From assembly GCA_947630705.1 (NCBI GenBank), contig CANRIK010000005.1:1-64000 (forward strand): 64,000 nt of DNA, written 5' to 3'. How positions within the stretch are numbered: the first letter of the stretch is position 1; every line of letters begins with the position of its first letter. Under the pieces are notes generated by a model, which made no database searches, was not told the origin of the DNA, and saw only the letters and a program-made list of their open reading frames with translations. Below are positions 24,011-27,672 of the stretch, piece after piece. Origin of the DNA: an uncultured Clostridia bacterium. Lineage in GTDB: Bacteria > Bacillota > Clostridia > Christensenellales > Borkfalkiaceae. A program made the position numbers and the translations under genes.

Positions 24011-24041
24011 TTATTTACGGCAACTTGTAAAGTGCTTGCCG

Positions 24042-24067
24042 AGCGGTATAAAGAAGCGGTATAAAGA
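24042..24067 (+). repeat. 13-nt tandem duplication before the DUF1934 gene
   Basis: AGCGGTATAAAGA occurs twice back to back (24042-24054 and 24055-24067), ending two bases before the DUF1934 ATG. It may be a replication-slippage product in the translation initiation region. Confidence 0.8.
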
Positions 24068-24068
24068 T

Positions 24069-24446
24069 ATGAAGTGTTACGTCACTATCCGCGGTTCGCG
24101 CGACAGCGAAGAGGTGCGTTCCGACGGCGAAATAACATTCGACGACAGGGGATTTGAAGTCAAATATTCCATTCTCGGCGACCGTTGCTCGTTCGCAGTG
24201 CGCGGCAACGCCGTTACGCAGAGTCGTCGCGGCGACGTGAACACCGATATAACCTTTGTCGAAGGCAGGGATACCGTCTGTATGTTGCTTTCGGGAGAGC
24301 TTACGGGCAGTATACCCGTAAAAACCGTTTTACTCGAAATATTATCCACCGCAACCGAAAGGACGGTGAACATAGATTACTATCTCGGCGGAGCCGAAAT
24401 AAATTTAAGGCTTACCGCTCATTTTTCACCCAAGGAGACATTATGA
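24069..24446 (+). CDS. DUF1934 family protein (YwiB-like)
   Basis: About 125 residues, almost entirely beta strands, matching the lipocalin-like DUF1934 fold (YVTIRGSRDSEE near the start, VNIDYYLGGAEINLRLTAHF near the end). Function unknown. The frame opens at 24036, but the ATG at 24069 fits family length better; its ribosome-binding site is weak, within a 13-nt duplication. The end overlaps the next gene by four bases (ATGA), so the two are translationally coupled. Confidence 0.75.
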   Translation: MKCYVTIRGSRDSEEVRSDGEITFDDRGFEVKYSILGDRCSFAVRGNAVTQSRRGDVNTDITFVEGRDTVCMLLSGELTGSIPVKTVLLEILSTATERTVNIDYYLGGAEINLRLTAHFSPKETL

Positions 24447-25087
24447 AAATTCAGTATCTCGGACATTCGTCTTTCAAACTTACGGAGAGTACAGGAACGA
24501 CTATCGTCACCGACCCGTATTCTCCCGAAATCGGTTTCAGAATGCCGAGCGTTTCCGCAGACGCCGTTACGGTTTCGCACCATCATTTCGACCATGACAA
24601 CGTTTCCGCGGTCGGCGGCAATCCTCGCATAATCGACAGCGAAGCGAGTTATGAGCTTCCGGGCGTGGAAATCAACGCGGTAAAGAGCTTTCATGACAAC
24701 GTGCGCGGCAAAAAGCGCGGCGAAAACGTAATTTTCAAATTCCGTATGGACGGTATAGACGTCTGCCATCTCGGAGATTTGGGGGAGTCCTGTACGGCGG
24801 AGCTTTTAGAGCTCATTCTTCCGGTTGACGTCCTATTGATACCCGTAGGCGGCAACTATACCATAGACGCTGAAACGGCAAAGGAGTACGTTGACAGACT
24901 CATGCCGGAAATCGTAATACCCATGCATTACCGCTCGAAAGATTGCAGGATTGATATAGAGAAAGTTGACGAGTTCGTCGATCTTTTCGACGACGAGGTT
25001 GTGGAGGAGTCGGAATCCTCCGAAATCGAGCTTTCGCGGAGCGATTTGACGGGCGATACGCGCATAATAGTTTTGAGGAGGGCGTAA
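24443..25087 (+). CDS. Metallo-beta-lactamase-fold hydrolase
   Basis: A 214-residue MBL-fold protein of the UlaG-like/DUF type. The metal motif is SHHHFDHDN near residue 45, with further ligands in FHD, GDLG and MHYR. These enzymes often hydrolyse phosphodiesters, lactones or nucleotides; the substrate is not evident. AAGGAG precedes the ATG, which overlaps the DUF1934 stop. It ends one base before the rho-like gene. Confidence 0.88.
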   Translation: MKIQYLGHSSFKLTESTGTTIVTDPYSPEIGFRMPSVSADAVTVSHHHFDHDNVSAVGGNPRIIDSEASYELPGVEINAVKSFHDNVRGKKRGENVIFKFRMDGIDVCHLGDLGESCTAELLELILPVDVLLIPVGGNYTIDAETAKEYVDRLMPEIVIPMHYRSKDCRIDIEKVDEFVDLFDDEVVEESESSEIELSRSDLTGDTRIIVLRRA

Positions 25088-25088
25088 T

Positions 25089-26402
25089 ATGTCCGGCACG
25101 GATATGCTTGCCGACATCCGCGAGAGGTTGCGCAGAAAGTCCATTTACGAGGTACGTCCCATAGCTCGCGTTGTGGGCGTTCAGTGCCCCACGGACGGCA
25201 AAAAGGATAGGCTCATAGAAGATATCATAGCCATAGCTTCCTGCAAGATTGCGCCGGCGCCCCGTTCCGCGCGCGGAGCGCCTCCGAAGTCCACCGATTT
25301 CGACGAGGCTCTCGTGGCGGATATCCGCGAATGTATAAAACTTTATTCCGCAAAGCTCTCCGAAAACGGTGTCGCTTTCAATGATACGGTAGTTTCCGAC
25401 AACTCCGAAGAGCGGCCGTGTTCAGGCATACTCGAAGTCGGCAGATTTGCGGTTTTGAGAGCCAAGGGTTTTGCGGCTTCCGACGACGACGTGTTTGTCG
25501 CCGATACCATAATCAATCGCTTCGGTCTGAAAGAGGGAGATAGGGTAGACGGCATTTGCAGACGCAAAACCGAGAAAGAAATTGCCGGCCTAGTGGCGGT
25601 GACATATATCAACGGCTTCACTCCCGATTCCCTTCGCCGTGGGGACTTTGAGAATCTCACGCCCGTCTATCCCGATAAACGTCTGCGTTTGGGCGTGCGC
25701 AAAGAAGATATTCTCACTCGCATGGCAGACATGTTCGCGCCTGTCGGACTTGGGCAGAGAGCGGTAATTTCCGTTCCGGCAGATTTGGGCAGAACAACGC
25801 TTTTAAGACAGATTGCCGCGGCAATATGCGGCAACGAAATGTTAAAACCTATATTTTTCCTCGTCTCGGCGGCGCCCGAAGATTTTACGTGCGTTAAGAG
25901 CTTTGCCGAGGGCGCGGAAGTGTTTTTTACTCCGCTTTCCGCCAGACCCGACGAAAACGTAAGCGCTTCGGAATTTGTGATTCGCCGCTGTAAGCGGCTT
26001 GCGGAGTCGGGCGCGAACGTTGTGTTGATTGTGGACGGCGCTTCCAGACTTCGGAATTCGGCCGTGCCCTTAATTTCATCGGCATTGAATGCGGCGGAGG
26101 GCGGTTCTCTCACCATAATCGCCACCGTAAGCGCCGAAGGCGAGTATTCTTCGGAGTTTTCTCCCGAATTGTTGAGCGCCGCAAATATGCGCCTTATAAT
26201 ACGCTCCGCGGCCTCCGACGTTCCGCATATCGATGTGGCAAAATCTTTCACGCTTCACCGAGAACTTCTTCAAAGTCCGCGCGAAATGGCGGCGGCGGAC
26301 GGACTGCGCGCGCGCTGTGCGAGCGCGGAAGGTCTGAAAGAGGTTCAAAAACTCTTTAAAGAAACCGAAAATAACGAACAAATCATAGGCTGCGATGGCT
26401 GA
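25089..26402 (+). CDS. Degenerate Rho-family protein, probable pseudoenzyme
   Basis: A 437-residue intact frame with the whole Rho layout: N-terminal helical domain (10-52), linker, OB-fold RNA-binding domain (112-175; GILEVGRFAVLR in place of the RNP1 GFGFLR), the junction FENLTP and a RecA-like motor domain (200-437). The motor is altered at its key sites: the Walker A motif reads PADLGRTT (230-237), with Arg235 where E. coli Rho has Lys181; LIDERPEE becomes LVSAAPED, losing the catalytic Glu211 (Ala261 here); and the Q-loop stretch between Walker B (LIVD316) and EGGSLTIIAT is about 20 residues shorter. ATP hydrolysis and RNA translocation are therefore doubtful. GAGGAGG stands upstream; the end overlaps obgE by 8 bases. 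Confidence 0.85.
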   Translation: MSGTDMLADIRERLRRKSIYEVRPIARVVGVQCPTDGKKDRLIEDIIAIASCKIAPAPRSARGAPPKSTDFDEALVADIRECIKLYSAKLSENGVAFNDTVVSDNSEERPCSGILEVGRFAVLRAKGFAASDDDVFVADTIINRFGLKEGDRVDGICRRKTEKEIAGLVAVTYINGFTPDSLRRGDFENLTPVYPDKRLRLGVRKEDILTRMADMFAPVGLGQRAVISVPADLGRTTLLRQIAAAICGNEMLKPIFFLVSAAPEDFTCVKSFAEGAEVFFTPLSARPDENVSASEFVIRRCKRLAESGANVVLIVDGASRLRNSAVPLISSALNAAEGGSLTIIATVSAEGEYSSEFSPELLSAANMRLIIRSAASDVPHIDVAKSFTLHRELLQSPREMAAADGLRARCASAEGLKEVQKLFKETENNEQIIGCDG

Positions 26403-27672
26403 CAAACTGTTTACCGATAAGGTCAAAATAACAATAAAATCAGGCGACGGCGGCGACGGAATGAATTCCTTCAAGTCCTATAAGGGCAAGCCGGCGTGCG
26501 GACCGGACGGCGGCGACGGCGGAAACGGCGGCAACATCTATATGCTTGCCGACAGTTCCGTCAACGACCTGCTGTCTTTTCGCTATGTCGGCAAGTATGT
26601 CGCCGGCAACGGAGAGAGAGGCGGCTCGAACAAGTGCTTCGGCAAGTTCGGCGAGGACGTGATAATAAGAGTTCCCGTAGGCACAGTCGTGCGCGACGAG
26701 CAATCGGGAACGGTCATAGCCGATATGTTTTCCGACGGCGAAAAGAAACTTATTGCCGAGGGCGGAAGAGGAGGCAAGGGCAACGTCCGCTTTACAACTT
26801 CCAGACGCCATGCTCCTAATTTTGCGCAAAAGGGAGAAAAGACGGAGCCTCACACTCTTATTCTCGAATTGAAAGTTATAGCCGACGTCGGCATAATAGG
26901 ATTTCCTAACGTAGGAAAATCCACCCTTCTCTCGAAAATTTCCGCCGCAAAGCCCAAAATAGCAAACTATCATTTCACTACTCTGTCCCCCAATCTCGGA
27001 GTAGTGAAGTACTACGACAACTCCTTTGTGGCCGCGGATATTCCGGGACTTATCGAAGGCGCCTCCGACGGCGCCGGTCTCGGCCACGACTTTTTGAGAC
27101 ATATCGAGCGCACGCGCATGCTGCTGCACGTAGTGGATATATCCGGAGTGGAGGGAAGGGATCCGACGGAGGATTTTTCCAAGATAAACAGGGAGCTTGA
27201 AAATTATTCCGAAGTCCTCGCAAAGCGTCCGCAGATAATCGCGCTCAACAAGTGCGATATATCGGGAGCCGACGAAAATATTGCGGCGTTCGTAAAGAAA
27301 TACGGCAAAAAATATAAGATTTATCGGATTTCCGCCGTTGACGGAGGCGGTCTCGAAGAGCTTGTAAAGGGCGTGTTCGAAAAACTGTCCTCTCTTCCGC
27401 CCGTGCAGAGAGTGGAGAGCGACGAAACGTTCACATACCGAAAGAGCGGAGACCTCGGCTTTGAGATATATCTCGACGACGGAGTATATGTAGTCGTCGG
27501 TGCTCTCGTCGATATGCTCTGCCGCAACGTAGTGCTGTCCGACCCCGACTCCATGGCGTATTTCCAGAAAATTCTTCGTGAAAAGGGAGTTATTTCTCGC
27601 CTCGTCGATATGGGCGCGAAAGAGGGCGATACCGTGAGCATCGGCGAGGTGGAATTCGATTTTATCCCTTAA
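26395..27672 (+). CDS. obgE: GTPase Obg/CgtA
   Basis: A 425-residue ribosome-assembly GTPase. The Gly-rich Obg domain (residues 1-158) has the repeated GGDGG pattern; the G domain starts at GFPNVGKSTLL (G1), with DIPGLIEGA (G3) and NKCD (G4); the OCT domain closes the protein. It binds the 50S subunit and responds to the nucleotide state and ppGpp. The ATG lies inside the rho-like gene (8-base overlap), so translation of the two is coupled. Confidence 0.97.
   Translation: MADKLFTDKVKITIKSGDGGDGMNSFKSYKGKPACGPDGGDGGNGGNIYMLADSSVNDLLSFRYVGKYVAGNGERGGSNKCFGKFGEDVIIRVPVGTVVRDEQSGTVIADMFSDGEKKLIAEGGRGGKGNVRFTTSRRHAPNFAQKGEKTEPHTLILELKVIADVGIIGFPNVGKSTLLSKISAAKPKIANYHFTTLSPNLGVVKYYDNSFVAADIPGLIEGASDGAGLGHDFLRHIERTRMLLHVVDISGVEGRDPTEDFSKINRELENYSEVLAKRPQIIALNKCDISGADENIAAFVKKYGKKYKIYRISAVDGGGLEELVKGVFEKLSSLPPVQRVESDETFTYRKSGDLGFEIYLDDGVYVVVGALVDMLCRNVVLSDPDSMAYFQKILREKGVISRLVDMGAKEGDTVSIGEVEFDFIP

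Follow-up and report, generated by a model that had tools for sequence, protein, structure and literature searches.

A rho-like open reading frame (ORF) on contig CANRIK010000005.1 of an uncultured Clostridia bacterium (assembly GCA_947630705.1, Borkfalkiaceae) encodes a full-length Rho homologue that has lost the residues of its motor. The ORF lies at positions 25,089–26,402 of the window, by which we mean the whole 64,000-nucleotide stretch of DNA analyzed; it is on the forward strand, as are the parts of rho and its two neighbouring genes given below, and its product has 437 amino acids. We put at about an even chance the reading that this protein, the vertically inherited rho product of its lineage, is a Rho pseudoenzyme under purifying selection whose retained task resides mainly in the N-terminal module, carried on a folded non-motor scaffold. 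The observations behind this reading are the loss of the catalytic glutamate, the arginine finger and the Q-loop, the intact frames, and a ratio of nonsynonymous to synonymous substitution rates (dN/dS) of ~0.13. To these are added a predicted Rho fold, the finding of no second Rho, and a constraint on the N-terminal module that is the least changed within the protein.

Motor sites and fold of the window protein

Sites were called by aligning the window protein with E. coli K-12 Rho and relatives, and E. coli numbering is used for the equivalent positions. The Walker A motif reads GRT and not GK[TS], with Arg235 (25,791–25,793) in place of the lysine (Lys184). Ala261 (25,869–25,871) replaces the catalytic glutamate (Glu211), and Leu389 (26,253–26,255) replaces the arginine finger (Arg366). 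A segment of the Q-loop is missing at approximately 26,052–26,075, where all 20 alignment columns corresponding to E. coli residues 276–295 are gaps. Further changes affect Lys181 (Asp232), Arg212 (Ala262) and Arg347 (Ser373), and Arg353 falls in a gap. Thr185 and Arg269 are kept as Thr236 and Arg320. A sequence-only reading of this DNA had recognized the loss of motor residues in an intact, full-length Rho, and the alignment bears out its numbering of Arg235 and Ala261; it had overlooked that the Walker B aspartate is kept (Asp316, 26,034–26,036; E. coli Asp265) and that residues of the primary RNA site are partly kept, with F, R and F at 62, 66 and 80 and V at 64.

The OB fold, which holds this primary RNA site (residues 112–180; 25,422–25,628), matches the Pfam domain Rho_RNA_bind (PF07497) at 49 bits (cut-off 27). 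The protein scores 177.6 bits against TIGR00767, below the cut-off of 509.45, and 168 bits against NF041509 (Rho2, the short-form paralogue), below the cut-off of 628. Every one of the 14 PDB sequence matches listed for it is a Rho or a Rho RNA-binding domain. The predicted structure has the Rho fold; in its list of structural matches, V-ATPase chains come far behind Rho. The genome of the window (1.59 Mb, 18 contigs) is 97.05% complete, and TIGR00767 matches this locus alone; a canonical rho elsewhere, for which the sequence-only reading proposed a search, is thus likely, though at this completeness not proven, to be absent. Since only one locus is matched, the window Rho is not a paralogue beside a canonical Rho, as far as the assembly shows. 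A search of the same genome with PF00006 gave two strong rotary-ATPase-like matches, the rho locus, and one weak match on contig C18.

Motor loss and the remaining constraint

We examined 93 genomes of the genus, 84 of which contain a Rho-like match. The TIGR00767 cut-off is passed by none of the 93, intact motors included, and the scores form a high group with a long tail. Seven motor residues were scored in an alignment of 81 sequences from 80 genomes, from which G021, G063, G078 and G109 were left out because their rho is fragmentary or broken. All seven residues are kept in 33 of the aligned sequences and not in the other 48. In a species tree built with FastTree from ObgE, YhbY, NadD and prephenate dehydrogenase (96 taxa, 1182 columns; the placement of G089 is weak, its obgE piece comprising 46 codons), the window falls inside a 44-tip clade (support 0.86) without any intact motor. 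This clade holds 39 complete motorless genes, two fragments, two deletions and one contig break, which answers the question raised by the sequence-only reading of whether the form marks a conserved clade. The remaining motor losses lie dispersed between relatives whose motor is intact. When absence is treated as a loss, the minimum number of losses is nine on the tree as drawn, and eight, six, six and four after collapsing branches with support below 0.7, 0.8, 0.9 and 0.95, respectively. The motor has been lost repeatedly in the genus, once at the base of the 44-species clade.

The pattern of residue retention in the 39 complete sequences of this old clade is uneven. Arg366 and Arg347 are kept in none and Gly287 of the Q-loop in two, and Glu211 is kept in six, with Ala in 20 and Gly in seven. 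Retention is higher for Lys184 (31 sequences), for Thr or Ser at 185 (30) and for Asp265 (32); the Walker A lysine was additionally lost on the window's own branch. We also took 90 motor columns that do not vary among intact forms and hardly vary in 18 outgroup Rhos; retention over these columns averages 0.52, and Gly171, Glu214, Ala304 and Thr314 are retained in all 39 sequences. At the primary RNA site, Phe or Tyr occupies position 64 in 33 sequences and position 80 in 29. These counts indicate that the sites for hydrolysis and translocation are given up, whereas the residues of the fold, and in many cases the nucleotide pocket, persist. Among the nine scattered motor-damaged sequences, Arg366 is kept in six, Glu211 in three, Lys184 in seven and Asp265 in all nine.

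Selection was measured on eight close motorless pairs and eight intact pairs, chosen by hand. Pooled dN/dS over the whole gene is 0.135 (bootstrap 0.117–0.154) for the motorless pairs versus 0.090 (0.080–0.102) for the intact pairs, and over the motor part 0.121 (0.103–0.155) versus 0.072 (0.058–0.084). The two closest motorless pairs (dS 0.11 and 0.31) give 0.166 and 0.131, so the low ratio is not an effect of saturation alone. Under neutrality the window gene would be expected to acquire 39 stop codons per substitution per site, which for the three complete motorless pairs (summed dS 1.3) amounts to ~50 stops; their frames are complete. Because dN/dS is far below 1, selection acts on the motorless rho, as the sequence-only reading had argued from the intact frame, and these sequence comparisons, together with the 39 complete frames among 44 tips, indicate that the gene is not a plain pseudogene but a full-length, catalytically damaged form under long-term purifying selection. 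That reading had also held that intact motors at this locus in near relatives, or dN/dS near 1, would mean recent decay. Intact motors do occur at the locus within the genus, but the 44-species clade contains no such case, and dN/dS stays well away from 1.

To locate the constraint, we fitted branch lengths on the fixed species tree (68 taxa, 27 of them intact) and expressed them relative to ObgE. The motorless-to-intact rate ratio is 1.17 for the NadD control, 1.57 for the N-terminal module (residues 1–90), 5.60 for the motor and 8.47 for the OB fold. Among the parts of Rho, constraint after motor loss is least changed in the N-terminal module. The earlier suggestion that the RNA- or nucleotide-binding parts were retained for a role does not fit these rates; constraint has shifted to the N-terminal module instead.

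This module spans residues 1–93 (25,089–25,367), with predicted helices at 3–16, 19–29, 39–50 (the Rho_N region) and 73–93. Of all linear motifs in the protein, RGAPPKS (residues 62–68; 25,272–25,292), which a helix follows, is the best conserved; its G63 and P66 are shared by all 39 sequences from the motorless clade. A search for Rho_N at E ≤ 1 detected it in 39 of 63 aligned members, though not in the window protein itself. In several canonical Rhos of the order the place of RGAPPKS is taken by RGRPPK, a sequence resembling an AT-hook. Separately, a 92-residue ORF in genome G024 (contig C9, 830–1033) weakly matches Rho residues 7–74 (E 1.5e-5) and may be a stand-alone Rho_N protein.

These features suggest the following course of events. 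The machinery for ATP hydrolysis and RNA translocation would have been lost in the ancestor of the 44-species clade, and purifying selection would afterwards have kept the protein as a Rho pseudoenzyme. Such a protein would not terminate transcription by motor action. Its N-terminal module (Rho_N region, RGAPPKS and helix 73–93) may dock to a partner, either a nucleic acid or a protein, and our first guess is nascent RNA or RNA polymerase; the OB fold and RecA-like core would serve as a folded scaffold, possibly still oligomeric.

Damaged motors are also found in the wider order. Of 396 genomes sampled, a Rho match at E ≤ 1e-20 was obtained for 313, and the TIGR00767 cut-off was exceeded in 215. 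Of nine Rhos from the window's own family outside the genus, four (genera g28 and g29) have lost Glu211 and five (g26, g27 and g31) are intact; a tenth genome gave no Rho match. Among 27 genomes of family f4, 13 keep all seven residues, three differ at one or two sites, seven (g68 and g92) have lost Glu211, and four (g4) have lost both Lys184 and Asp265. We tentatively propose, at somewhat less than even confidence, that Rho has a second, motor-independent function that is mainly N-terminal and has repeatedly outlived the motor in the order (in this genus, in g28 and g29, and in g68, g92 and g4 of f4). Values of dN/dS in f4 do not discriminate here, since intact pairs (0.149–0.325) are no lower than g68/g92 pairs (0.067–0.176).

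Several of these sequences deserve description in their own right. The g68/g92 Rhos (L290–L295 and L298, from G233, G393, G170, G267, G308, G339 and G188) score 398–430 bits against TIGR00767 and have Val, Leu, Met or Ile for the catalytic glutamate, with the rest of the motor well preserved; they are well-conserved forms that are probably hydrolysis-dead. The g4 Rhos (L208, L209, L211 and L301, from G376, G278, G149 and G039), ~570–610 amino acids long and devoid of the Walker A lysine and Walker B aspartate, are a parallel case in another family. All four carry GARAWHNP in a long, disordered N-terminal arm, a motif absent from the other 23 f4 sequences, and three of the four carry a VMT motif by the pattern used. 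Single motor-damaged Rhos occur in families f9 (L297, G044), f28 (L214, G183) and f6 (L300, G300).

Gene neighbourhood and competing explanations

The rho-like ORF begins with ATG one base past the stop codon of a beta-lactamase-fold hydrolase gene (24,458–25,087; Lactamase_B_3 match), a neighbour of rho in the genus, continues in an uninterrupted frame, and overlaps the downstream obgE (26,395–27,672) by eight bases; both neighbours are outside the function claimed here. The prephenate dehydrogenase and hydrolase genes are separated by a small ORF (24,036–24,446), as they are in the rho-less G025 (L088, 7294–7677). From the eight-base overlap, the sequence-only reading had proposed a pseudoenzyme that binds RNA or nucleotide at the ribosome together with ObgE. 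Across the genus, obgE lies directly 3' of rho in all 48 motor-damaged sequences and in 32 of the 33 intact ones, the one remaining stretch stopping short of obgE; the hydrolase gene lies 5' in 46 of 48 and 33 of 33, respectively. The overlap is no commoner when the motor is lost (25 of 48) than when it is intact (24 of 32). Since obgE adjoins rho in intact forms too, the arrangement is ancestral; the rho-obgE link is older than motor loss and does not explain it. Where rho has been deleted, obgE is retained. Coupling to obgE was accordingly ruled out as an explanation, and we regard a role at the ribosome with ObgE as very improbable. In G085, two different intact rho copies (L144 on C31 and L145 on C3) each stand in the order hydrolase gene, rho, obgE, and they could come from two strains mixed in one bin.

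Nine genomes of the genus lack a Rho match. In four of them (G025, G070, G071 and G072) rho is cleanly deleted, the hydrolase gene and obgE standing side by side. The other five have contig breaks or no complete obgE, and deletion could not be scored: obgE is incomplete or not found at E ≤ 1e-20 in G079, G092 and G093, and the contig starts at or near obgE in G009 and G076.

Two genome-level signs of lost termination were sought. Coding-strand purine bias has been described as weaker in Bacilli without rho (PMC13323073). In five conserved genes, purine content is 0.541 for the 33 intact sequences, 0.520 for nine other motor-damaged ones, 0.544 for 40 of the old clade and 0.558 for the four without rho; in larger stretches from 21 genomes it is 0.527 (nine intact), 0.532 (eight motorless) and 0.547 (four rho-less). 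At fourfold sites the nine scattered motor-damaged genomes are lower (0.329 vs 0.388, p = 0.0003), which we attribute to kinship because the related intact genomes G087 (0.287) and G089 (0.281) are also low. A weaker purine bias with motor loss thus finds no support, the rho-less genomes going the opposite way, and the purine test may not work in this genus. Intrinsic terminators differed at a first look, mostly around rho (96 of 287 ends in the old motorless clade vs 49 of 259, p = 0.0008); the difference was dropped when it was not reproduced in new stretches (44 of 103 vs 84 of 182, p = 0.42).

The foremost rival, which we consider unlikely though worth serious weight, is the slow decay of a dispensable rho: repeated motor loss, a weak residual constraint (from folding, avoidance of toxic misfolding or minor binding) and final deletion. 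It draws on the several independent losses, which remain at four even at the strictest support threshold, on the clean deletions and the broken frame in G021, on the 5.6- to 8.5-fold acceleration, and on terminator use and purine content that are the same in intact and motorless genomes, as if the intact Rho mattered little. The pooled dN/dS of 0.135 and the complete frames in 39 of the 44 old-clade tips speak against decay, as do the retention of fold-critical columns in all 39 sequences and the nearly unchanged rate of the N-terminal module. We think it improbable, more so than decay, that the protein still terminates or pauses transcription without translocating. In this reading the RNA-polymerase-bound protein would inhibit elongation allosterically, a mode reportedly proposed for early steps of E. 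coli Rho (Said 2021). The retained fold and some retained primary-site residues would suit such a mode, and unchanged purine content and intrinsic-terminator use would be expected if termination were unchanged; however, the rho-less genomes do not have a weaker purine bias either (0.547 vs 0.527 in intact ones), so that the genome tests lack power. The OB fold is moreover the most relaxed part, and hydrolysis-dead M. tuberculosis Rho releases transcripts inefficiently (PMC4499133).

Several findings weigh against a retained N-terminal task as well. The module disappeared with the rest of rho in the four genomes with clean deletions, so its task is dispensable there; a stand-alone N-terminal module gave no match at E ≤ 0.01 in these four. 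The rho frame is broken in G021, a member of the window's own motorless clade. The 8.47-fold relaxation of the OB fold speaks against retained RNA binding at the primary site. The dN/dS pairs were picked for closeness and several have saturated dS, and in the motorless class the motor's dN (0.147) does not greatly exceed the dN of the module (0.114). Slow decay, too, is compatible with the repeated losses and the faster evolution, and neither the purine nor the intrinsic-terminator test gave a genome-level sign of lost termination.

Relation to known Rho proteins

Rho has been studied almost exclusively as an ATP-driven terminator. Here, closely related genomes show the motor intact, damaged or deleted within one and the same gene neighbourhood, which makes its role separable from that of the remainder of the protein. 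If the motorless forms have a task, it would be a motor-independent Rho role that ordinary Rhos may also possess without its having been noticed; otherwise, the genus would be a clean example of the stepwise dismantling of a global terminator. Either way, it would be misleading to annotate such proteins as termination factor Rho or to score Rho as present when termination is surveyed.

The window protein shares with E. coli Rho and the TIGR00767 family its fold, domain order, OB RNA-binding domain and Walker B aspartate, and it descends vertically at the locus of intact rho; it differs in scoring far below the family cut-off and in lacking the Walker A lysine, catalytic glutamate, Q-loop and arginine finger. 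Rho2 (NF041509) is likewise a Rho homologue scored by the same search, but the window Rho misses its cut-off and is the only Rho found in its genome. F1-alpha and V-ATPase B are RecA-like ASCE proteins that have lost catalysis and act as structural parts of a ring beside a catalytic partner. Unlike these non-catalytic rotary ATPase subunits, the window protein has no catalytic Rho partner that we could find in its genome.

A literature comparison that covered mostly titles and the beginnings of abstracts, with Moreira 2024 (Rho diversity) and Said 2021 outside it, turned up no paper on a natural motorless Rho. The closest laboratory counterparts are the hydrolysis-dead mutants E. coli E211A and M. 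tuberculosis E386A, which bind ATP and form oligomers without hydrolysis (PMC4499133). They carry the same change of the catalytic glutamate to alanine; they are, however, man-made point changes, whereas the window protein combines many natural losses in a gene kept by selection. Among Gram-positive lineages, the Bacilli provide a precedent for losing Rho function repeatedly (PMC13323073). The weaker purine bias of those rho-less species is not seen in this genus, and the gene itself is absent there, whereas most affected genomes here keep the motorless protein.
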